From Aquabacterium humicola (GTDB lineage: Bacteria > Pseudomonadota > Gammaproteobacteria > Burkholderiales > Burkholderiaceae_C): a stretch of 64,000 bases of DNA. How positions within the stretch are numbered: position 1 is the first letter of the stretch; every line of letters begins with the position of its first letter. Under the pieces are notes generated by a model. The model ran no database searches, was not told the origin of the DNA, and saw nothing but the letters and a program-made list of their open reading frames with translations. Positions 1-12,161 of the stretch are shown in pieces. The translations under genes were made by a program, and so were the position numbers. The stretch is taken from NCBI RefSeq assembly GCF_030167915.1, contig NZ_JARGNB010000001.1, positions 1,364,001 through 1,428,000 on the forward strand, in the 5' to 3' direction.

Positions 1-938
1 GCCTCGGCCGCGGTGATGCCGCCGTCGGCGCACAGCGCGGCCAGCTCGCCGAAGACCGGCAGCGGCAGGCGCTGCACCGACGCGCCGGCGCGGCCGAGCA
101 ACATCAGCACACGCTCGAAGGCCGCGGCCACCGGCGCCGCGAGCTGCTCGGTGAACAGGCTCTCGGCCACCGCGAAGCGGAACGTGCGCGGCGCGCGGTC
201 GCGCCGGATGCGCAACGGCCGGCCGGCGACCACGCCGTCGACGCGCCAGCAGTCGTCGACGCAATGCGCGAGGCTGCCGATGGTGTCGCTGGCCGGGGAC
301 AGCGGAAACAGGCCGGCGCTCGGCACGCGGCCCAGCGACGGGCGGAAGCCGACCAGCCCGCACAGCGCGGCCGGCACCCGCAGCGAGCCGCCGGTGTCGG
401 TGCCGAGCGCGACGTGCGCCATGCGGTCGCTGACCGACACCGCGCCGCCGGAGGTCGAACCGCCCGGGATGCGCGCTTCGGCACGACGCCAGGGGTTGCG
501 CGGCGGCTGCCAGGCCGGGTGCGTGCCGGTGACCGAATACGCGAACTCGGACATCGACGTGCGGCCGACGAGGATCGCGCCGGCGCTGCGCAGGCGTTCG
601 ACGGCCACCGCGTCGCGCGTGGCCGGCGCCGCGGCGGCTCGCGTCGGCGAACCGGCGCGCGTGACCTGCCCGGCGATGTCGAAGTTGTCCTTCACGCTGA
701 CGATCACGCGGTCGAGCGGCGTGCGCAGCGTGCGCCCCCCGCCCTGCTGCAGCTGTGCGGCCCGGGTGCGCGCGGCGTCGGCATCGTGCTGCACGAAGAC
801 CCGCGCGCCTTCGCCCCGCGGCTCGGCGGTGTTGGCCAGCGCGATGTCCACCGCGTCGCCCGCGCGCAGCCAGCCGCCGCCGAGCGCCGCGTGGTATTCG
901 GCGATCGGCCCCAGCGGGTCGAGCGTGGGACCCCGCAT
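1..938 (-). CDS. Amidase-signature family hydrolase, C-terminus beyond window
   Basis: The N-terminal 312 or so codons of an amidase-signature (AS) enzyme are present; the gene continues past the left edge. AS enzymes hydrolyse amides with a Ser-cisSer-Lys triad. All three candidate residues are visible: Lys83 in VSVKDNFD, Ser163 in IPGGSTSGG and Ser185 in LGTDTGGSLRVPAALCG. The signature is slightly divergent (GGSTSGGAVS instead of GGSSGGSA). No signal peptide is seen, so a cytoplasmic place is inferred. The ATG start overlaps the stop of the upstream WD40 gene (TGATG), indicating translational coupling and making this the last visible gene of the minus-strand cluster that begins at 7375. 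The substrate is unknown; related families include allophanate hydrolase, aryl amidases and Glu-tRNA amidotransferase A. In this setting it may trim or hydrolyse an amide in a cluster product. The family is certain, the substrate is not. Confidence 0.93.
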   Translation of the reverse strand, partial: MRGPTLDPLGPIAEYHAALGGGWLRAGDAVDIALANTAEPRGEGARVFVQHDADAARTRAAQLQQGGGRTLRTPLDRVIVSVKDNFDIAGQVTRAGSPTRAAAAPATRDAVAVERLRSAGAILVGRTSMSEFAYSVTGTHPAWQPPRNPWRRAEARIPGGSTSGGAVSVSDRMAHVALGTDTGGSLRVPAALCGLVGFRPSLGRVPSAGLFPLSPASDTIGSLAHCVDDCWRVDGVVAGRPLRIRRDRAPRTFRFAVAESLFTEQLAAPVAAAFERVLMLLGRAGASVQRLPLPVFGELAALCADGGITAAE

Positions 939-2719
939 CACGCCAGCGTCTCCGCGGGCCGAGGCATCGGCACCGTGCGCGGCGCCGGGATGCGGTGCGT
1001 CGCGCCGTCGTACGAGCTGGCGATGAACCCCTCGCCCTCCGGATCGGCGACGATGCTCGAGATCCCGAAGGTCGACGGCCGCAGCGTCGGCAGCCATCGG
1101 TCCTCGATGCGGTCGTAGAGCGCCACCAGGCCGCGGTAGCCGGCGGTGGCGAGGGTGCGGCCGGAGGTCGACACCGCGATGCAGCGGATCGAATGCCGGT
1201 GCGGCGTGTTCAGGCAGCGCTGCTGCAGGTCGCGCCGCCACAGCCGCAGCTTGAAGTCGCGGCCGACGCTGGCGAAGCCGTCGGCGGTGGCGACGCAGCC
1301 GTTCGCGATGGCGCTGTGGCCGGCCGGCACGCGCTGCTGCAGGCGGCCGTCGGCCGCGTCGCTCAGGGCGACCGCGCCGTCGGCGCAGCAGGAGAAGACA
1401 CGACCGTGCGCCACGGCGACCCCCTTGATGGCGTTCTCGTGCGTGCGGACGTTGTCGATCAGTACCAGCATGCCTTCCCGCTGCGCGAAGTACAGCAGCT
1501 CGCCGGTGTAGGTGCCGACGACCAGCCGCGCTTCGCCGTCCTGCCGGTAGGCGGCCGCGCAGTTCAGCGGCGACGCGTGGCGGTGCAGCGGCCGTGCGCT
1601 GCGCGCGTCGAACAGCATGCCGGTCTGGCCGCCGGCATACAGCGTGTCGAAGCCCGGAACGAGGAAGTTGCACAGGCTGCCGAGATCGGCGACCGCGATG
1701 CCGTCGCGGCGCAGCACGCCGGCATCGCCGATGTCCCAGATGCTGCCGGCCGCGGCGCAGACCGCATTGAGGCTGCGGTCGCGGCGGATCGGGTCGAGCT
1801 GCCACTGGCCCGAGACCAGGTCGACGCTGGCGTAGGTCGAGCCGAAGGTGCCGAAGACCGCCTCGTGCTCGCCGGCCAGCGCGCAGCTGCGCGGCCAGAC
1901 GATGCCGGGAATACAGATGCGCGCGACTTCGGCCAGGCGCTGGCCGTGCTCGATCTGCCAGACCGAGAAGCTGCCGTCGTAGCTCAGGCACAGCACCCGC
2001 TGGCGTTCGGCATCGGCCTTCAGGAACTTGATGCCGGCGGCGTGCGCGCACTGGCGTTGCAGCACGCCCTTCTCGCCGACGAGGTAGATCGTGCCGGTGT
2101 CGTCGCCGCAGACGAGGCGCCCATCGCCCATCACCGCCAGCGCATCGCTCTGCGCGCCGCCGAGCTGCACACGCTCGATCTCGACCGCGCTGTCGGGGCA
2201 CCAGCGGCGCACGGTGCCGTCGTCGCTGCTGGAGACGAGCGATCGGCCTGCGTCGTCCCACGCCAGGGCCAGCACGTCGCCGTGGTGGCCGAGCATCATC
2301 GCCAGCGGCTGGCCGGTCATCGCGTCCCAGGTGCGCACGGTGTGGTCGTGCGACGAGGTGGCGATCCGCTTGCCATCGGGCGAGAACACGGCGGTGTCGA
2401 CGTCGTCGGCATGGCCGCTCATCACGGCCGTCAGCTGCATCGCCGGCACCGACCAGATGCGCGCGGTGTGGTCGCTGCTGGCGCTGACCAGGCGCTGGCC
2501 GTCGGGCGAGAAGGCGACGCTGTTGACGAGGTGGTCGTGCAGGCCCATCGCGACGGCCTGGCGCGTCGCGCGGTCCCACAGGATCACGCGGTTGTCGTAG
2601 CCGGCGGTGGCGATGTGCGTCGCGCTGCAGGCGATGCCGGCGATGGGGCCGAAGTGGGCCAGGCTGCCTGCGGCAGCGTGCTCCAGGCTGCCGGCGGCAG
2701 CCGTGTCGATGGTCTTCAT
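938..2719 (-). CDS. WD40-repeat beta-propeller protein A
   Basis: This 593-residue protein has classical WD40 repeats in its first 200 residues, for example GHADDVDTAVFSPDGKRIATSS followed by DHTVRTWD, with GH and WD dipeptides at about 40-residue spacing. Weaker repeats follow to the C-terminus, enough for one to two propellers. There is no signal peptide, so it is probably a cytoplasmic scaffold. The N-terminus has a small internal repeat (AAAGSLEH, then AAAGSLAH). The start lies nine bases after the GTP cyclohydrolase II stop and the stop overlaps the amidase start. WD40 proteins are unusual inside bacterial enzyme operons. A WD-repeat protein, ToxC, accompanies GTP cyclohydrolase II in the toxoflavin operon of Burkholderia glumae (known from that system). 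The parallel suggests a role in a GTP-derived pathway, but no direct homology can be shown here. Confidence 0.9.
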   Translation of the reverse strand: MKTIDTAAAGSLEHAAAGSLAHFGPIAGIACSATHIATAGYDNRVILWDRATRQAVAMGLHDHLVNSVAFSPDGQRLVSASSDHTARIWSVPAMQLTAVMSGHADDVDTAVFSPDGKRIATSSHDHTVRTWDAMTGQPLAMMLGHHGDVLALAWDDAGRSLVSSSDDGTVRRWCPDSAVEIERVQLGGAQSDALAVMGDGRLVCGDDTGTIYLVGEKGVLQRQCAHAAGIKFLKADAERQRVLCLSYDGSFSVWQIEHGQRLAEVARICIPGIVWPRSCALAGEHEAVFGTFGSTYASVDLVSGQWQLDPIRRDRSLNAVCAAAGSIWDIGDAGVLRRDGIAVADLGSLCNFLVPGFDTLYAGGQTGMLFDARSARPLHRHASPLNCAAAYRQDGEARLVVGTYTGELLYFAQREGMLVLIDNVRTHENAIKGVAVAHGRVFSCCADGAVALSDAADGRLQQRVPAGHSAIANGCVATADGFASVGRDFKLRLWRRDLQQRCLNTPHRHSIRCIAVSTSGRTLATAGYRGLVALYDRIEDRWLPTLRPSTFGISSIVADPEGEGFIASSYDGATHRIPAPRTVPMPRPAETLA

Positions 2720-2728
2720 GGACGCTCC

Positions 2729-3385
2729 TTACAGGCGATGGCCCTGCTTGCGCTTGGCATGCAGGTAGCGGTGGTTGTGCGGGTTCTCGTGGCGGCGGGT
2801 CGGCAGCACGGCGTCGACCTCGATGCCGTGGCGCTCCAGCCCCGCGGCCTTGTCGGGGTTGTTGGTCAACAGGCGCACGCGCTCGACCTGCAGCGCCTGC
2901 AGCATCTGCGCGGCGATGCCGTAGTCGCGGTGGTCGTCGCGGTAGCCGAGCGCCCGGTTGGCCTCGAAGGTGTCCAGGCCCTGCTCGCTCTGCAGCTGGT
3001 AGGCGCGCAGCTTGGCCACCAGGCCGATGCCGCGGCCTTCCTGGCGCAGGTACAGCAGGTAGCCGCCCTGCTCGCCGAACATCGCGACGCTTTCCTGCAG
3101 CTGCGGCCCGCAGTCGCAGCGCAGCGACGCGAAGACGTCGCCGGTCAGGCATTCGGAGTGGATGCGCACCAGCGGCACGCCGCCGGGCTCGACCGACGGG
3201 CCCGGAAAGCGCACCGCGACATGGTCCGGCGCCGGGCCGTTGCCGTGGCCGTGGCCGTGCGCGGCCTGCGCGCCGTGCAGGTCGAAGCTGTAGAAGCGGC
3301 CGTGGGCGCCGCCGGCGAGCGGGATCTCGGCGCTGGCCTTGATGGCCGGCGCGGCGCGGACCGGAGAGGGCAGGTCAATGACCAT
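2729..3385 (-). CDS. ribA: GTP cyclohydrolase II (RibA-type), cluster paralogue
   Basis: The 218-residue product matches GTP cyclohydrolase II, which opens the GTP imidazole ring to give formate, pyrophosphate and 2,5-diamino-6-ribosylamino-pyrimidinone phosphate. The zinc motif is intact: [20 protein letters not shown] supplies the three cysteines. The catalytic stretch [18 protein letters not shown], the DTFEAN segment and RLLTNNPDK are all present. There is no fused RibB domain. A Gly/His-rich insert ([10 protein letters not shown], about residues 42-51) is unusual. The gene overlaps the flavin reductase upstream by 11 bases and is nine bases from WD40 protein A. No other riboflavin gene is nearby, so the enzyme more likely feeds a dedicated pathway (for example a 7-azapteridine or deazapurine-like product) than housekeeping riboflavin. 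The symbol names the family only; toxB would be the analogue in toxoflavin operons. Confidence 0.93.
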
Positions 3386-3989
3386 AGGGGTAGGCCTTCA
3401 GGGCGCGCGCGAGCGTCGGCCGCACCGGGGCCAGCGCGCGCGCATAGGTGATCAACTGGCCGAGCGAGGTCTTCACGCGCAGCTCGAGCCGCTGGTGGTC
3501 GGCGGTCTTGTCGCCGGGAAACGCCGGGAACTGCTGTTCCACGTTGCGCACGATCAGGTGGTCGGGAATGAAGACGAGGTGCGCGTTCTTCGTGCACGAC
3601 GCGCGCAGCTCGGCGATCGGGTACGAGCCGCCGATGCCGGCCGACACCGCGATCAGCAGCACCGGCTTGTGCGCGACCTCGCCGTTGGTCAGCGCGAGCA
3701 GCGCGGCCTTCAGCGCCGGCGGCGCCATGCCGCCCCACTCGGGCACCACGATGACCAGCGCGTCGGCCCATTCGGCGGCTTCGCGCAGCGCGCCCAGCGC
3801 CTGCGTCTCGTGCTCGGCCGCGTCGTCCTCCCACTTCGGCAGGTCGAGCTGGGCGATGTCCAGCAGCTGCGACATCGCGCCGGGCTGCTCGTCGACGAAG
3901 CGCTGCATCACCTGCGCGATGCGCAGCGATTCGGAAGCCGGCCGCGGACTGCCGGCGAGGATCAGGAGACGGGTGTCGGGGGACTGCAC
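3375..3989 (-). CDS. NAD(P)H-dependent FMN reductase-like flavodoxin-fold oxidoreductase
   Basis: A 204-residue protein of the NADPH-dependent FMN reductase family (flavodoxin fold). The FMN-phosphate loop is seen near the N-terminus ([17 protein letters not shown]) and the second conserved loop as [18 protein letters not shown]. Such enzymes reduce free or bound flavin, quinones or azo groups. The start chosen is a GTG at 3989 because an AAGGAG ribosome-binding site lies seven bases before it and homology begins there; a longer open frame upstream is only the shadow of the MFS gene. The 3' end overlaps the GTP cyclohydrolase II start by 11 bases, so the two are probably translationally coupled. 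In the cluster it may supply the redox step in making a heteroaromatic product. The substrate is unknown. Confidence 0.88.
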
Positions 3990-4021
3990 GGTGGGCTCCT
4001 TCGGGGTTCGATCAGGCGCAC

Positions 4022-5335
4022 TCAGGGACGGCCGGGGCGGAAGGCCGCAGGGAAGAGACCGAGGTAGGCGGCGCGCTGGCCCGCTTCGCCGGCCATCAGC
4101 AGCGCACGCAGGTGCGGCGCGGCAGGAATTGCGAGCAAGGGCACCAGCGACAGGCCGGCGAAGCCGGCCAGCAGCCACGCCGGTTCGCTGCGCTGCGCCA
4201 GCCAGCCGGCGCCGACGTTGCCCGCCGGCACCAGCAGCGACGAGACGAAAGCGGCGTTGGCGACGATGCGCGTGCGCCAGGCCTCCGGCGTGGCGCCCAG
4301 GCGCAGCGCCGACAGGTTGGTGCCGACCAGCACCAGCGCGAAGCCGATGGCCGCGGTGGCCGGCACCAGCAGCGCCACCTGCAGCGGCGCCAGCGCCATC
4401 AGCGCGAACGCGGCGGGCAGCATCACCAGGCCGGCAAGCACGGTGCGCCAGGCGCCGAAGCGGGCATTGAGCGGCTTGACCGCGAACAGCGCGGCGACCG
4501 CGACGCCGACGCCGAGCGCCGCGTCGACGACACCGGCGACCCAGGCGCCCTGCCCCAGCAGCGCGAGCTGCGGCACGACGATGGCGACGAAGCACGCGAC
4601 CGCCGCGGTCAGGAAAGCCGACCCGATCGCGACGGCCAGCTCGGTGCGGATGCGGCACAGGCTGCGCAGGCCGTCGAGCGTGTCGCGCCACCACGCGCCG
4701 AACGACAGCGTGCCGGCGGGCGACGTCGCCGAGGCCTGCGGCAGGGTCGCACCGGCGCACAGCAGCGCACCGGCGATCAGCGCCGCCACCGCGAGCATGC
4801 AGGTGGCGCTCGCGCCCAGCCAGGCGGTGAGTCCGCCGCCGACGGCCGGGCCGAGGATGCGCGAGGCGGTGCCCAGCGCACGGCGGATGCGCACGCCGTC
4901 GGTGAGGCTGGCGTCGCCGACCAGCCGCGGCAGCGCGGCGTCGGCCACGGGGTCCCGCGCCGCGTCGAGGAACTGCGCGGGGATCAGCAGCGCGGCGAGC
5001 AGCACCGCATCGAAGGGCCCGCGCGCCACCACCGCCAGCAGCGCGATGCAGGCGATCTGCAGCAGGAAGGTGACCTGCACGACGCGGCCGCCGAAGCGGT
5101 CGCCCAGCGGCGCGGCCAGCGGGCCGATCAGCAGGTCGAAGCCGGTCGCCAGCGCCAGGATCGCGGCCAGCTGCAGCGGCTCGCGCGTGCTTTCCAGGCA
5201 CCACCACGCGCCGGCGAAGGACGCCAGGCGCAGCGCGAAGTAGCCGAGCACGATGCCGGACTGGAAGGCGTAGAAGGGCATCGGCAACGCGCCGCCTGCC
5301 GCGCCGCGATGCGCCGATGCGGTGTCCGCGTTCAC
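4022..5335 (-). CDS. Major facilitator superfamily transporter, probable exporter
   Basis: The product is 437 residues with about 12 hydrophobic segments and MFS features, for example the loop PLGDRFGGRVVQ between segments 2 and 3, resembling the MFS G-x-x-x-D-R-x-G-R-R signature. It resembles the DHA3/enterobactin-exporter type of MFS protein. The start is a GTG whose last bases form the stop of WD40 protein B (GTGA overlap); a methionine 18 codons further in (MPFYAFQSG) is an alternative. The gene is followed after 32 bases by the FMN reductase. In a cluster of biosynthetic genes it most likely exports the product or gives self-resistance. The direction and substrate are inferences. Confidence 0.88.
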   Translation of the reverse strand: MNADTASAHRGAAGGALPMPFYAFQSGIVLGYFALRLASFAGAWWCLESTREPLQLAAILALATGFDLLIGPLAAPLGDRFGGRVVQVTFLLQIACIALLAVVARGPFDAVLLAALLIPAQFLDAARDPVADAALPRLVGDASLTDGVRIRRALGTASRILGPAVGGGLTAWLGASATCMLAVAALIAGALLCAGATLPQASATSPAGTLSFGAWWRDTLDGLRSLCRIRTELAVAIGSAFLTAAVACFVAIVVPQLALLGQGAWVAGVVDAALGVGVAVAALFAVKPLNARFGAWRTVLAGLVMLPAAFALMALAPLQVALLVPATAAIGFALVLVGTNLSALRLGATPEAWRTRIVANAAFVSSLLVPAGNVGAGWLAQRSEPAWLLAGFAGLSLVPLLAIPAAPHLRALLMAGEAGQRAAYLGLFPAAFRPGRP

Positions 5336-7185
5336 AGGGCGCCTTGCGCGTCGCGCGCCAGGTAGACCGTCTTCAGCAGCGCCGGATCGATGGCGTCGCC
5401 GATGCGGTAGACCGACAGGAACTCGCGGCCGCCCATCAGCAGGAAGGCCTCGTCGGGGGCATCGCCGGGCAGCACCGCGAGGCCCTTCGGGAACGAATCG
5501 GGGCTGAACTGCACGCTCTTCAGCTCGGCGCTCTCGGTGTCGAAGGACAGCAGCTGCTGGCCGTAGGTAACGAGGTAGGTGCGGCTGCCGAAGGTGATGC
5601 CGTTCTCGACGGTGTTCATCACCCACTCGCGGTACTGCGTGCCCCATTGCACGCTGCGCGTATCGAGCAGGCGCGCGCCGAAGGCGCCGTTGCCGACCAT
5701 CAGCATGCGGCCGGGCGACAGCGCGCGCAGCCGCTTCGGATTGCCCTCCAGCTCGAGGCGCCCGAGCTCCGCCCAGCTGTCGGCATCGAGCACGCGCACC
5801 GCGCCCAAGCCGCCGAGCGAACGTTCGCCGATCACCAGGCGCGTGCCGTCGGCGTCCAGCGCCAGGCACCACACCGGGCGCTCGCAGCCCAGGCGGCGCA
5901 GCAGCGCGCCGCGGCGCAGGTCGATCTCGCTCAGGTGGCCGTCCTCGCTGGCGACGATCACGCTGTCGCCGTCGGGGCCGACCACGATGTCGCGCAGGAT
6001 GCCGCCGATCGCTTGCGTCCATTCGACGCGGCCATCACGATCGCTGCGGAAGACCGCCCCCGAGGTGCTGATGCCGACCAGCGCGCCGTCGTTCATCGTC
6101 AGCACGCGGCGCACGCGGCCGAAGCCGAGGTCCGGACTCTTGTGCAGCGCCAGCGCGACGTCGCCGCGCTGGCCCGGCTGCACGCCGATCGACAGCAGCG
6201 AGCCGGACTCCAGGCCGGCGCAGAAGCCCTGCCCGGCCATCGGGTCGATGCCCCACACCGCGTCGGTGCCGAAGGCCTGCGCCTTGATCGCGCCGGTGTC
6301 GGCATCGAGGGCGTAGAGCTCGCCCGATTCGAGCGTCGCGTACAGCGTGCGCTCAGGGCCTACGCGCACGTGGTTGACCTGGAACTTGAACGGGCCGAAA
6401 CGGCCGGCCAGACGCGGCGTCGCCTCGCGGTTGTCGACGCGGTAGATGTAGTGGTCGAAGCAGGCGATGTAGGCGGTGCCGCCGCAGCCGCTGAAGGCGA
6501 TCTGCTCGACGTCGTCGCGGGTGAACTGGAAGCGGTGCTGCACTGCGCCGTCGAGGCCGACGATCAGCACACCGCCATGGTTGTCGGTGCTGCACCACAG
6601 GCGGTCCCAGCGCGCGTCGTGCACCAGCGAATGGCTGGTGCCCAGCGGCGTCTCGGCGGCGTGCAGCACCTGCAGCCGCTGGTCCTCGCTGCCGGCCTGC
6701 CAGATGCCGCCGATCGTGTCGGCCGCGTAGATGCGGCCGTTGCGGTCGAAGCAGGCCGAGTCCAGCATCACGTTGTCTTCCGGGCACAGGGAGCGCTCGA
6801 AGGCCAGCGTGCCGACGCGCCAGGCCTGCAGTTCGCCGAAGGGGTTGGCGCACCAGATGCGCTCGCCGTCGAACGCCATCGCCTGCGACGGGTTGGGCGC
6901 GGCGGTCTCGCCGGCGAATTCCAGCGTGTACTGGCCGGTGGACACCATGCCGCGCGGCTGCAGCGTCGCGGCATCCCATTGCATCAGGTTGCCGAGGATG
7001 TCGCGGGTGAAGACGCGCCCGTCGCCGACAGCGATCGCGCTGATGCAGGCGCCGTGCTTCAGGGCCGGCGAGGTCTGCAGCAATTCGAGCCCGAGGCTCA
7101 GCTTTCGGACCAATCCACGATCGTCCGCGGCATAGACGAATGACGCGGATTCGTCGACAAACAGGTTCGTGATGCGAACGTCCAT
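5332..7185 (-). CDS. WD40/YVTN-like beta-propeller protein B
   Basis: The 617-residue product consists of repeated four-strand blades with patterns such as GHLSEIDLRRGALLRRL and GTRLVIGERSLGG, giving one large or two propellers. The WD dipeptides are less regular than in protein A. No signal peptide or membrane segment is seen. It is the first large gene after the small peptide gene at 7304-7375 and is separated from it by 118 bases that hold a strong stem-loop. Its stop overlaps the GTG start of the MFS gene. Having two different propeller proteins in one biosynthetic operon is unusual. They may scaffold the enzymes or bind the peptide or intermediate. I do not recognise a characterised relative beyond the propeller fold. 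Confidence 0.85.
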   Translation of the reverse strand: MDVRITNLFVDESASFVYAADDRGLVRKLSLGLELLQTSPALKHGACISAIAVGDGRVFTRDILGNLMQWDAATLQPRGMVSTGQYTLEFAGETAAPNPSQAMAFDGERIWCANPFGELQAWRVGTLAFERSLCPEDNVMLDSACFDRNGRIYAADTIGGIWQAGSEDQRLQVLHAAETPLGTSHSLVHDARWDRLWCSTDNHGGVLIVGLDGAVQHRFQFTRDDVEQIAFSGCGGTAYIACFDHYIYRVDNREATPRLAGRFGPFKFQVNHVRVGPERTLYATLESGELYALDADTGAIKAQAFGTDAVWGIDPMAGQGFCAGLESGSLLSIGVQPGQRGDVALALHKSPDLGFGRVRRVLTMNDGALVGISTSGAVFRSDRDGRVEWTQAIGGILRDIVVGPDGDSVIVASEDGHLSEIDLRRGALLRRLGCERPVWCLALDADGTRLVIGERSLGGLGAVRVLDADSWAELGRLELEGNPKRLRALSPGRMLMVGNGAFGARLLDTRSVQWGTQYREWVMNTVENGITFGSRTYLVTYGQQLLSFDTESAELKSVQFSPDSFPKGLAVLPGDAPDEAFLLMGGREFLSVYRIGDAIDPALLKTVYLARDAQGAL

Positions 7186-7251
7186 GGATTGGCTCGAAAG
7201 GGTCGAATGAAGGGAATGGCGGAATGCCGGTGGCGGTATTCCGAAGGGAGG

Positions 7252-7294
7252 GAAGGCGCCGGCCGCAACCGCGATGACGGCGGCCGGCGCCTTC
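7252..7294 (-). promoter_or_regulatory. 15-bp perfect stem-loop between peptide gene and operon
   Basis: A perfect 15-bp inverted repeat (arms 7252-7266 and 7280-7294, arm sequence GAAGGCGCCGGCCGC) encloses a 13-base loop. It begins ten bases after the stop codon of the peptide gene and ends 66 bases before WD40 protein B. No U-tract follows in the minus direction, so full termination is unlikely. Partial termination or protection of the upstream mRNA end is more likely, which would give more peptide mRNA than downstream enzyme mRNA. Similar hairpins often follow precursor genes in bacteriocin and RiPP operons. Confidence 0.8.
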
Positions 7295-7303
7295 AGGTCA
7301 CGA

Positions 7304-7375
7304 TCAGATCGACTTCGGCGGACGGATCGTGGGCGCCTTGGTCTTGGCCAGGTTCTTCAGGGTGTCGAACTTCAT
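7304..7375 (-). CDS. 23-residue peptide, candidate precursor peptide
   Basis: A 24-codon reading frame (including TGA) starts with ATG at 7375. The peptide begins MKFDTLKNLAK and ends APTIRPPKSI. It is Lys-rich and has a basic, amphipathic N-terminal half and a Pro-rich C-terminus (PTIRPP). It lies on the same strand as, and directly ahead of, the WD40-MFS-FMN reductase-RibA-WD40-amidase genes, 144 bases after the AraC regulator gene. A purine-rich stretch (GAAAGAGAAAG) about six bases before the ATG can serve as a weak ribosome-binding site. A strong hairpin follows the stop. The position and hairpin fit a precursor or carrier peptide for the cluster; a leader peptide for attenuation is the alternative. 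It contains no Cys, Trp or Tyr, which excludes lanthipeptide or PQQ-type chemistry. I know no family for it; coding status is inferred from context. Confidence 0.6.
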   Translation of the reverse strand: MKFDTLKNLAKTKAPTIRPPKSI

Positions 7376-7519
7376 GGTGCTTTCTCTTTCGGGGTTGAAC
7401 GCGACGACGTTGCCGCCTCGCAGTTGTAGGTGCCGAGGGAGAAAAGCCCGGTCCGATTTCTTCAAACGGTGCGATTGAAGCCGCGATGAAACAATGCAAA
7501 CCGCGGCCGGTGACGCAGG

Positions 7520-8353
7520 TCACAGATTGGCGGCGAGCAGCGCGGCCAGCGGCGCGAGCGCCGGCCATTGGCGCTCGAAGGCGCGCCGCAGTGCCGCGGG
7601 CGCATGGCCCGCGGCATCGCGCAATTCGCGCGACAGATGCGCGTGATCCGAAAAGCCGCAGGCTTCGGCCAGCTCCGGCAGCGGCGTGCCGCCCGGCGCG
7701 TGCAGGCCCCTGAGCGCGGTCTGCGCGCGGGCGATGCGCTGGTACGTCTTCGGCGGCACGCCGAACAATTCGCCGAAGCAGCGCTGCAGCTGCCGCGTGC
7801 TGAGCTGCAAACGCTCTCCGAGCTCGGCCACCGGCCGGCGCGCGATCTCGGGGCCGAGCGCGAGCAGCGCGTCGGCCCACGCGGGCAGCGCGGTGCGGCG
7901 ATCCAGCCGATTGAGCAGATAGGCTTCGAGCGCCCCGACACGCTCCTGCACGCTTCTCGCGTGGCGGGCGCGGTGCATCAGCACCTGCAGCGCCAGCGAC
8001 GGGATCGCGGCGCGGGCGTCGAGCACGCAGCCGGCCATGTCTGCGGGCGGCAGGCCCAGCAGCTCGCCGGCCCGCCCGGCGCGCAGCAGCACGCTGGTGC
8101 TCTGCGGCAGGGACACGTATTTCAGTCGGTAGGGTTTCGGCTGCAGGCCGAGCAGCGTGCACTCGGCGAAGTCACGGCCGTGGTCGGGGGCTTCGATGCG
8201 GCCCTCGTGCAGCAGCGCGAGCACGCTGATCGTGTGCGCGGGGAACTGCGCCTCGGGCGGTGTCTGCTTCGCCGCCGCTTCATCGCGCACGACGTAGCAC
8301 AGCACGTGCTCGCGCAACGCCGCACAGGGGTCGACGAGATGGAGCGCGGGCAT
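7520..8353 (-). CDS. AraC-family transcriptional regulator
   Basis: The 277-residue product has an N-terminal sensing domain of the DUF6597 type and a C-terminal AraC DNA-binding domain. Both HTH units are visible: PVAELGERLQLSTRQLQRCFGELFG and PLPELAEACGFSDHAHLSRELRD. It lies upstream of, and on the same strand as, the peptide gene, with 144 bases between them, so it is the likely activator of that cluster (inference). A 14-bp dyad (GTGACGCAGGTCAC, 7510-7523) overlaps its stop codon at the head of the intergenic region and could be part of a control site. The ligand is unknown. Confidence 0.9.
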   Translation of the reverse strand: MPALHLVDPCAALREHVLCYVVRDEAAAKQTPPEAQFPAHTISVLALLHEGRIEAPDHGRDFAECTLLGLQPKPYRLKYVSLPQSTSVLLRAGRAGELLGLPPADMAGCVLDARAAIPSLALQVLMHRARHARSVQERVGALEAYLLNRLDRRTALPAWADALLALGPEIARRPVAELGERLQLSTRQLQRCFGELFGVPPKTYQRIARAQTALRGLHAPGGTPLPELAEACGFSDHAHLSRELRDAAGHAPAALRRAFERQWPALAPLAALLAANL

Positions 8354-9007
8354 CTTGGTGCGTACGTCGGGGACGGGGCGGCACCAGTCTGCGGCGGGGC
8401 TGTATCAGCGAAGCTTCCCGGGGGGCTTGATCCGTTTCAAATGTGTCCCGTGACGTTTGCGGGCTTGCGGGCTTGCGAAGACGGAGCGGTCGGGCGACTC
8501 GGGGCGCGGGCCCGGCGGGACGGCTCCGGCGGTCGACCCTGGGGGGCCGACTCCCCTGCGGTCCTCGGTCGAGGAGGCCGCCGTCATCTCCGCGCTTCGC
8601 GCTGCGCACAGCGCCGGCGAGTCAGAACGCTGCCCCCTCGCCCTGCGGTCCTCGGCGCCTGCGACGACCCGCCGGGCCCGCGCCCCGAGCCGCCCTCTGG
8701 TGGGATGTCGGTGCATGCGGCCGCACGCCACCGTGTCTCGCAAAGGCGTGGGCGGGCAGGCGGCGTCGCGCGTTGGAGGCGCCGGCCTGCGGCGGTTCGG
8801 AGGGCGGCGCGCGAAGCGCGCTTCAACAACTGACTCGCCGGCGCTGTGCGCAGCGCGCCAGCGCGGAGCTAAATGGACGGCGCGCCCTCCGGACCGTCGC
8901 AGGCCGGGGAGTCGGCCCCCCAGGGGCCGACCGCCGGAATCGCGCGACGCCGCCTGCCCGCCCGCGCCTTTGTCGCTCCGCTCTTCGCAAGCAACAACAC
9001 GCGATGC
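8354..9007. repeat. Gene-free 654-bp region of nested and inverted GC-rich repeats
   Basis: No credible gene is present; open frames here are compositional. The region holds at least three pairs of inverted repeats: 8525-8556 with 8906-8938 (about 30 of 33 bases), 8599-8624 with 8831-8856 (26 of 26), and 8741-8772 with 8941-8972 (31 of 32). A 14-base direct repeat (CCTGCGGTCCTCGG) occurs at 8555-8568 and 8642-8655. The end of the right unit (GCTTGCGAAGA on the minus strand) also recurs near 8471. This looks like two or more copies of one composite intergenic repeat of about 130 bp in opposite orientations. The upstream control region of the AraC gene probably lies at 8354-8470. Similar C-run/G-run motifs occur near 13690, 17740 and 46660. 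Confidence 0.75.
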
Positions 9008-10436: not shown

Positions 10437-10499
10437 GGGGTGGTTTGTACCGCGTCGCCAGGGCTAGGATCACACGATCCGACGAGGGGAGTCTTTGCG

Positions 10500-12161
10500 A
10501 TGAGCCACAGCTTCAACTTCGGCCGCTTCTCGGCCAGCGGTGCGGCGCCGCAGCGGCGCGGCGGCGGGCGCTTCCGCATCGCCTTGCTGGGCGATTTCTC
10601 CGGCCGCGCGCACCGCGGCGAGCTGCGGCGCGGCGCGGCGCTGGCGCAGGCCAGGCCGCTGAAGCTCGACGTCGATACGCTCGACCGCCTGCTCGCCGGC
10701 TTCGGTGCCGTGCTGCGGCTGCCGATGGACAGCGTCGGCGACGTGGTGGAGCTGAAGCCGCGCTCGCTCGACGACCTCCACCCGGATGCGCTGTACGACA
10801 GCCTGCCGATCTTCAGCCGCCTCGTGAGCCTGCGCCAGCGGCTGGCGCAGCCATCGACCTTCGCCGCCGCGGCGGCCGAGGTGCGCCAGTGGGACGACGT
10901 GGCCGCCGCCGAGCTGGCCGCCGCCGCCGCGGCCGAGGTGAACCAGCCCGCGCGCGGCGATGCGCTGGCGGTCGACGCGACCTTCGGCGACTTCTCGCGC
11001 CTGCTCGGCCGCGCCTCGGCCCCGGCGCCGGCCCCCGGGCCGCTGGACGAGATGCTCAAGCGCATCGTCGCGCCGCACCTGAAGCAGGCCGCGTCGCCCG
11101 ATGCGCCGGCGCTGACCGCGGCGGTCGACCGCGCGCTGTCGCAGGCGATGCGACGCGTGCTGCACCACCCCGACTTCCAGTGCCTGGAGGCCGCGTGGCG
11201 CACGCTGGACTTCGCGGCGCGGCGCATCGAGACCGACGAGGCGGTGCAGCTCGTCGCCTACGACCTCAGCGCCGAGGAGCTCGCCGCCGACCTGTCCAGC
11301 ACCGACCAGCTGCAGGACACGGCGCTGTACAAGCTGCTGGTCGAGCAGCCGTCGCTCGATGCGCACCAGGGCGCGCTCTCCACGCTGATCGGCTGTTATG
11401 GATTCGAGCTGACGCCGCCGCAGGCCGAGCTGCTGGGCCGCGTCGCGCAGATCGCCGCCGCGGCGCGCGCGCCGTTCTTCGCCGGCGTGGGCCGCGGCTG
11501 CATCGACGATGTCGAGGCCGGCCCGGTTCATCCGCGCATCACCGAAGCCGTCGGCCTGCTGCGTGCGCTGCCGGCGGCGCGCTTCCTGTCGCTGATCACG
11601 CCGCGGCTGCTGCTGCGCGCGCCCTACGGCAAGCGCTCCGATCCGGTCTCGCGCTTCAACTTCGAGGAATTCGACCCGGCCGCCGGCCTCGACCAGCTGC
11701 TGTGGGGCCCGCCGTCGCTGGCCGCCGCGGTGCTGCTGGCGCAGCATGTCGCCGAGCACGGCGCGCAGCAGCCGCCGCTGGCGCAGTACGGGCTCGACGA
11801 CCTGCCCTACTTCTATCACTACGACGCCGACGGCGAGGCCACCGCGGTGCCCTGCACCGAGCGGCTGCTGACCGAGCGCCACGTCGCCGCGCTGCAGGGC
11901 ATCGGCGTCGTGCCGCTGCTGGCACACAAGGGCCAGCCGGAGGTGCGCCTGGCCGGCTTCCAGTCGCTGGCCGGCGGCGCGCTGGCCGGCCCCTGGGGTG
12001 GCGACGCGGTGCTGAACACCGCCGCGCCGGCCGCGGCGGCCGTGGCCGAGGGCAGCGCCGACGCGGAGCTCGATGCACTGCTCGACGCGATGGGCGAACG
12101 CCGGCGCGCGCGCGGCGGCATGGACTTCAGCGTGCTGCTGTCGGACCTGCGCAAGTCGTGA
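10500..12161 (+). CDS. Orphan TssB-TssC fusion (type VI sheath-like protein)
   Basis: The 553-residue product joins two type VI secretion sheath proteins in one chain. Residues about 20-150 resemble TssB/VipA (RFRIALLGDFSGR, VELKPRSLDDLHPDALYDSLP). Residues from about 200 resemble TssC/VipB (RVLHHPDFQCLEAAWRTLDF, ELAADLSSTDQLQDTALYKLL, FLSLITPRLLLRAPYGK). Normally these are separate subunits that form the contractile sheath. No other T6SS gene (tssD, tssE, tssK, clpV or vgrG) lies in the window. The next gene, an anion permease, overlaps its stop by four bases (GTGA), so the two are translationally coupled. The role is unknown: it could be a divergent sheath of a distant T6SS or a recruited scaffold. 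Family assignment rests on motif similarity. Confidence 0.82.
   Translation: MSHSFNFGRFSASGAAPQRRGGGRFRIALLGDFSGRAHRGELRRGAALAQARPLKLDVDTLDRLLAGFGAVLRLPMDSVGDVVELKPRSLDDLHPDALYDSLPIFSRLVSLRQRLAQPSTFAAAAAEVRQWDDVAAAELAAAAAAEVNQPARGDALAVDATFGDFSRLLGRASAPAPAPGPLDEMLKRIVAPHLKQAASPDAPALTAAVDRALSQAMRRVLHHPDFQCLEAAWRTLDFAARRIETDEAVQLVAYDLSAEELAADLSSTDQLQDTALYKLLVEQPSLDAHQGALSTLIGCYGFELTPPQAELLGRVAQIAAAARAPFFAGVGRGCIDDVEAGPVHPRITEAVGLLRALPAARFLSLITPRLLLRAPYGKRSDPVSRFNFEEFDPAAGLDQLLWGPPSLAAAVLLAQHVAEHGAQQPPLAQYGLDDLPYFYHYDADGEATAVPCTERLLTERHVAALQGIGVVPLLAHKGQPEVRLAGFQSLAGGALAGPWGGDAVLNTAAPAAAAVAEGSADAELDALLDAMGERRRARGGMDFSVLLSDLRKS

Follow-up and report, generated by a model that had tools for sequence, protein, structure and literature searches.

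A peptide gene, a hairpin and a second beta-propeller added to a toxoflavin/pseudoiodinine-type gene core in Aquabacterium humicola: a putative ribosomal-peptide branch of the family

The window analysed here is a stretch of 64,000 nucleotides (C1:1364001-1428000) of the 7.39 Mb genome of Aquabacterium humicola. The subject of this report is an operon at its left end that contains a 23-residue peptide gene, genes for two beta-propeller proteins and a gene for GTP cyclohydrolase II (GCHII). All of the genes named in a first-pass annotation of the window were recovered, on the minus strand and in the order given there. The features are listed below, and the last two lie beyond the left window edge. 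FGE denotes formylglycine-generating enzyme, and RiPP a ribosomally synthesized and post-translationally modified peptide.

7520-8353, minus strand, AraC/HTH_18 regulator, with an equally placed counterpart in Aquabacterium terrae (72 % identity)
7304-7375, minus strand, gene for a 23-residue peptide, MKFDTLKNLAKTKAPTIRPPKSI, putative RiPP-type precursor
about 7252-7294, minus strand, strong hairpin between the peptide gene and prop1, stem score 17
5332-7185, minus strand, prop1, second beta-propeller, PQQ_2/BamB-like, marker of peptide-bearing clusters
4022-5335, minus strand, MFS exporter, 4-base GTGA overlap with prop1
3375-3989, minus strand, NADPH-dependent FMN reductase family flavoprotein (FMN_red)
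2729-3385, minus strand, GCHII, Zn ligands C79, C90 and C92 intact, putative PsdD-like role
938-2719, minus strand, WD40 protein, putative PsdE-like role
1-938, continuing to L003:18568 beyond the window, minus strand, signature amidase (PF01425), start at 938 (TGATG)
L003:17485-18552 (C1:1362485-1363552), outside the window after the amidase, FGE/SUMF1-like gene (FGE-sulfatase family; PF03781, E 3.1e-42), putative PsdC-like role
L003:16639-17442, outside the window after the FGE-like gene, methyltransferase

The GCHII and FMN reductase genes overlap by 11 bases, and a 9-base gap separates the WD40 gene from GCHII. The hairpin ends 66 nt ahead of the prop1 start and has no T-run behind it. Both propellers had been described as WD40 proteins in the first-pass annotation. 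They are indeed two distinct propellers, but the protein encoded by 5332-7185 matches PQQ_2/BamB-like propeller models and not WD40. A simple full-length paralogy with the WD40 protein was rejected too, as the profile match spans 89 columns only. The same annotation had recorded a methyltransferase as absent. One sits just past the window edge, behind the FGE-like gene and followed by LysE and GST, but it is not conserved: a search of the A. terrae stretches gave no match to it, and among the stretches of the eight prop1 loci described below it matches only itself. It was therefore left outside the cluster and rejected as a candidate ToxA.

The operon is real and conserved. In A. terrae S2, a member of the same genus, the order AraC regulator, peptide, prop1, MFS exporter, FMN reductase, GCHII, WD40, amidase and FGE-like gene is kept at 72-88 % protein identity, with the peptide gene at the identical place. 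Of 22 codons compared between the two peptide genes, 19 are identical, one differs synonymously and two nonsynonymously. The flanks common to both species are an acylphosphatase and an SDR gene on one side, and a GST gene and an open reading frame (ORF) without a Pfam match on the opposite side. The genes thus stay together in relatives, as the first-pass annotation required of its proposal, both in A. terrae and in the other prop1 loci.

As an FGE-like gene follows just beyond the window edge, the core of the operon consists of GCHII, WD40 and FGE-like genes, the same trio (psdD, psdE and psdC) that serves in pseudoiodinine biosynthesis. The equivalent toxoflavin trio is toxB (GCHII), toxC (WD-repeat) and toxD (FGE-like). 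The toxoflavin-type pathway suggested earlier on the basis of GCHII and a WD40 protein therefore gains its FGE-like partner. The accompanying statement that no cluster of this make-up had been described does not hold for the core trio, which is already described, but appears to hold for the peptide module. In make-up, the tox clusters of Burkholderia and Pseudomonas protegens share GCHII, the WD-repeat protein ToxC and the FGE-like ToxD with the window operon, but have a methyltransferase and RibD where the window operon has the peptide, prop1 and the FMN reductase. The order methyltransferase-FGE-GCHII-WD40-RibD, the make-up expected of the tox type, was found in Azospirillum and in genome G735.

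The accessible part of PMC9911603 describes the pseudoiodinine cluster psdABCDEFG of Pseudomonas mosselii 923, in which psdD (GCHII), psdE (WD40) and psdC (sulphatase-modifying-factor/FGE-like) lie in one operon, as here, and to which two methyltransferases, a VOC protein and RibD are added; a peptide, a second propeller, an FMN reductase and an amidase are not named in that part, and the likeness is one of gene content. It also reports that product formation in psdC (SUMF) and psdE (WD40) mutants was restored by feeding 1,6-didesmethyltoxoflavin, so that the FGE-like and WD40 proteins act before the azapteridine, and proposes that PsdC and/or PsdE link a pyrimidine to glycine through an N-N bond (PMC9911603). 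A further report (PMC12154649) mentions a proposal that ToxC is an oxidase responsible for the N-N bond.

When plasmid records were searched with tblastn, the WD40 protein (E 1e-30) and the FGE-like protein (E 1e-60) each matched 10 records, and nine were shared, which indicates that the two proteins travel together. Both prop1-bearing plasmids carry the FGE-like gene. The WD40 relatives are full-length and share 40-47 % identity in nine of the ten records and 26 % in Halobacillus; their likening to ToxC and PsdE is by description. Formylglycine-generating enzymes carry a copper-binding cysteine pair after a GGS[FY] motif. This pair is absent from all 12 FGE-like proteins compared, which have a GGSF.RF.D[LM].R..RRHG-type stretch instead, making formylglycine formation by them unlikely. 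Two further stretches (L028 9644-14214 and L029 9390-14640) encode a WD40 protein, an FGE-like protein, a different FMN-reductase-like protein and an ATP-grasp protein with an L-amino-acid-ligase C-terminal domain. They are perhaps a third variant, in which amino acids joined by a ligase would replace the ribosomal peptide. The L028 stretch gave no GCHII match, and the GCHII of L029 is interrupted by unknown bases.

What is new is the module added to this core, namely the peptide gene, the hairpin, prop1 and usually the FMN reductase. Prop1 was found in eight distinct loci on genomes or plasmids: the window, A. terrae, Roseateles oligotrophus, Exilibacterium tricleocarpae, genomes G1229 and G1199, Halobacillus litoralis plasmid pLDW-31 and a plasmid of Streptomyces sp. 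NBC_00316. Its range thus covers Burkholderiales, Exilibacterium and its order, Halobacillus and Streptomyces. Prop1 is rare, with matches in 3 of 199 relatives, 1 of 369 genomes in the class, 2 of 398 in the phylum (the distant propeller of genome G577 among them), 3 of 125 in the order of Exilibacterium, and 1 of 1 and 1 of 2 in two further small sets. Only 2 of 72,556 plasmid records contained it. A scan of contigs with two exact motifs matched 148 stretches, three of which encode a prop1 relative; as the motifs were exact, divergent copies like those of G1229 and G1199 were missed.

G577 is not counted among the eight. Its second propeller was picked up by the first profile (1.9e-22), but the fuller profile, searched at 1e-15, did not match it, and the small-ORF scan gave just one 12-residue ORF, on the other side. 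The fuller profile found prop1 in none of 61 genomes from the order of G577, in a search that was rated uninformative. The G577 propeller adjoins methyltransferase, VOC and MFS genes (L027 8446-10847) and follows an ORF no longer than 134 residues that closes with ...SLKRLGKPLSPGSATGLAVTMNQ and is possibly another type of precursor.

A peptide ORF, prop1, another propeller, GCHII and an FGE-like gene are present in the stretches fetched for all eight prop1 loci. The FMN reductase is found in seven, and the amidase in the window and A. terrae only. RibD, sought with two queries in the same stretches, matched in Roseateles only. The combination of a RibD-type deaminase/reductase with a conserved methyltransferase, as in toxoflavin clusters, was not found across the eight loci, and the cluster is therefore not filed as a toxoflavin cluster. 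In Roseateles, the RibD homologue lies upstream of the cluster with a LuxI-like synthase (30 % identity to that of Agrobacterium) and a LuxR regulator (L009 2600-5880), and by eye this set is separated from the cluster by transposase-like ORFs. LuxI and LuxR genes are also found beside the FGE-GCHII-WD40 set of Agrobacterium (L019). In G1229, a questin-oxidase-like gene (PF14027) lies between the WD40 and FGE-like genes (L059 5415-6488).

A peptide ORF followed by a hairpin lies directly upstream of prop1 in all eight loci, with stem scores of 9.5 to 17. This places the peptide in the pathway, as had been supposed, and provides the conserved ribosomal precursor gene within the operon that a RiPP pathway requires. 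The short peptides are, for the window, A. terrae, Roseateles, Exilibacterium, Halobacillus and Streptomyces, respectively: MKFDTLKNLAKTKAPTIRPPKSI; MKFDTLKNLANTKAPTIRPPKQI; MLIKKQNLAAKQFTEKKVYVPPVDGTGNN; MLVKKVNLSKKSFTNKAVYAPPIFN; MKKATKKPVRRVVNVEQ; MKKPIRRNVRNNK. Those of G1229 and G1199 are precursors of 65 and 61 residues with double-glycine leaders, ...LTVEETNQVAGG in G1229 and ...LTIDETQQVAGG in G1199. The G1229 leader is matched by the NCBIfam model 'CTB family bacteriocin' at E 0.0016, which does not reach the cut-off of that model, and the G1199 leader is matched by no family. In G1199, a HlyD adaptor and an ABC exporter with a C39 peptidase (PF03412, 9e-37) follow the FMN reductase. 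In Halobacillus, prop1 is directly followed by an MNIO (DUF692, PF05114, 9e-27), a member of the MbnB/TglH/ChrH RiPP family, and the protein behind it has neither a Pfam match nor a PDB sequence match.

Over the 22 codons compared between the Roseateles and Exilibacterium peptides, the residue is kept in 13, of which 10 carry a synonymous change. To the extent that a single pair allows, the peptide appears to be translated and selected as a protein. In a background control covering 132 gaps between genes in 14 stretches, 11 genes were preceded by a tiny ORF and a stem, and four of these were prop1 genes. The seven others all lacked a Shine-Dalgarno match, as did one of the four prop1 cases, A. 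terrae. Seven clusters with the same core and no prop1 showed no comparable small ORF; with G577 added, the scan gave just two small ORFs preceded by a Shine-Dalgarno match, and these were not similar.

We favour, with modest confidence, the reading that these loci form a RiPP-type offshoot of the toxoflavin/pseudoiodinine family, where a peptide made by the ribosome contributes to making, and probably carries, a GTP-derived heterocycle before export. GCHII would open GTP to a diaminopyrimidine, as its family and intact Zn site suggest, and by analogy with pseudoiodinine genetics the WD40 and FGE-like pair would build the N-N bonded ring (PMC9911603, accessible part). The peptide would be the pathway's own precursor or carrier. 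A peptide amine could take the place of the free glycine proposed for pseudoiodinine, and the heterocycle would be built on the peptide or attached to it. Prop1, seen only alongside the peptide, most likely binds and presents it, and the FMN-reductase-like flavoprotein may adjust the redox state of a flavin-like ring. Export would differ by host, through the MFS protein in the window, through RND, or through the C39-peptidase ABC exporter with a double-glycine leader. The peptide-attached, GTP-derived heterocycle envisaged in the first-pass annotation is thus strengthened by the prop1-linked peptides, the leaders, the exporter and the MNIO, while the attachment itself is still an inference.

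Relative to known RiPPs with double-glycine leaders and C39 exporters, G1199 is alike in leader and exporter and G1229 in the leader, but the window peptide has no double-glycine leader. The Halobacillus locus shares its MNIO with the MNIO RiPPs. We know of no RiPP class that combines GTP cyclohydrolase II, WD40 and FGE-like proteins, and a literature search for a GCHII/WD40/RiPP combination, or for toxoflavin with a precursor peptide, found none among the papers listed, with thin coverage of subscription papers. A more specific proposal, which we rate as slightly less likely than not, is a new RiPP class in which the N-N-forming WD40 and FGE-like pair, with prop1, would take a GTP-derived diaminopyrimidine and a ribosomal peptide as substrates and give exported, genetically encoded peptides with a triazine- or azapteridine-type ring as a flavin-like redox group.

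Several observations weigh against the RiPP-type reading. The peptides are very diverse (13-65 residues), no residue pattern across the eight fixes an attachment site, six of the eight, including that of the window, have no recognisable leader, and no conserved peptidase was seen across the prop1 loci. Only Lys and a general richness in Pro, Arg and Asn are common to all eight peptides. Of the two loci with double-glycine leaders, only G1199 shows the exporter; the G1229 contig ends inside the FMN reductase gene. The Shine-Dalgarno sequences of the window and A. terrae peptides are weak, and the small-ORF filter applied to the same-core clusters would miss both for that reason. The background control recovered only four of six prop1 genes, as crude gene calling missed those of the window and Roseateles. 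In Streptomyces, the stretch has no FMN reductase match, some 8 kb, with an insertion sequence element, separate prop1 from the core genes, and the second propeller is very divergent. Finally, the prop1 clusters are not grouped in the WD40 or FGE trees, suggesting that the peptide module may have joined the core more than once. A single origin was rejected, as each tree needs four changes, for a label that included G577 and in trees that did not contain G1229 and G1199. Shuffled labels reach four changes or fewer in 148 of 500 cases for the WD40 tree and 215 of 500 for the FGE tree.

Alternatively, the peptide could be a sacrificial scaffold or amino-group donor, with the ring built on it and then cut off as a small molecule. 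Precedent exists in PEARL- or PQQ-like logic, the peptides are short and variable, and the window and A. terrae operons include an amidase. The core trio also yields a small molecule in the known case, pseudoiodinine (PMC9911603, accessible part). However, the amidase has no match in the remaining six prop1 loci, the eight peptides share no C-terminal residue, and the double-glycine leader with a C39 exporter suggests that the peptide itself is exported. We consider this alternative unlikely, though worth keeping in view.

A second alternative is a free toxoflavin- or reumycin-like product, with the tiny ORF as a regulatory leader peptide and the hairpin as an attenuator for prop1 and the downstream genes. 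PP and Arg-rich stretches are ribosome-arrest motifs, and PP occurs in four peptides and Arg-rich stretches in two. The peptides are tiny in six loci, a hairpin lies behind the peptide ORF in all eight, and the hairpins of A. terrae, Roseateles and G1229 have or abut T-runs. On the other hand, a clear T-run is missing from five of the eight hairpins, and each of them ends 21-162 nt ahead of the prop1 start, so that most of the eight, as folded here, fall short of its ribosome site. The double-glycine-leader precursors of 61-65 residues at the same place in two loci, one beside a C39 exporter, and the MNIO RiPP enzyme after prop1 in Halobacillus do not sit easily with a simple attenuator, and we regard this explanation as improbable.

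The last alternative, that the cluster GCHII serves riboflavin synthesis and its neighbours are unrelated, was rejected as most improbable. The cluster copy (PF00925, E 2.6e-51), in which C79, C90 and C92 are invariant across 11 aligned rows, is one of two PF00925 matches in the assembly, and it alone has the Zn cysteines, which might have favoured a housekeeping role. However, the other is a RibB fusion (DHBP_synthase and GTP_cyclohydro2) without the Zn motif, and 6 of 14 genomes, the 14 including that of the window, have a single GCHII-family match, again without the Zn motif. The RibB motif is in the same ORF in five of these six, the exception, G023, not being resolved. Riboflavin therefore seems not to rest on the cluster-type copy. 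The first-pass annotation had asked whether the cluster RibA was the only one in the genome; it is not, and it is unlikely to be the riboflavin enzyme. The cluster GCHII also stays with the WD40 and FGE-like genes across phyla, and likely has a dedicated role.

Two neighbouring parts of the window were also noted. The segment at 8354-9007, between the AraC and acylphosphatase genes, is GC-rich, contains no identified gene and by eye includes near-repeated segments. At 10497-12161, a single ORF matches VipA (weakly, just under the cut-off) and then VipB, the type VI secretion sheath domains, as if it were a TssB-TssC fusion.

If the RiPP-type reading is true, nucleotide metabolism would feed straight into the modification of a ribosomal peptide, and prop1, a propeller of so far unassigned role, would become a peptide-handling protein. 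The N-N bond step of toxoflavin-type pathways would become testable via a tethered substrate. Prop1 itself is a genomic marker for finding peptide-bearing clusters.

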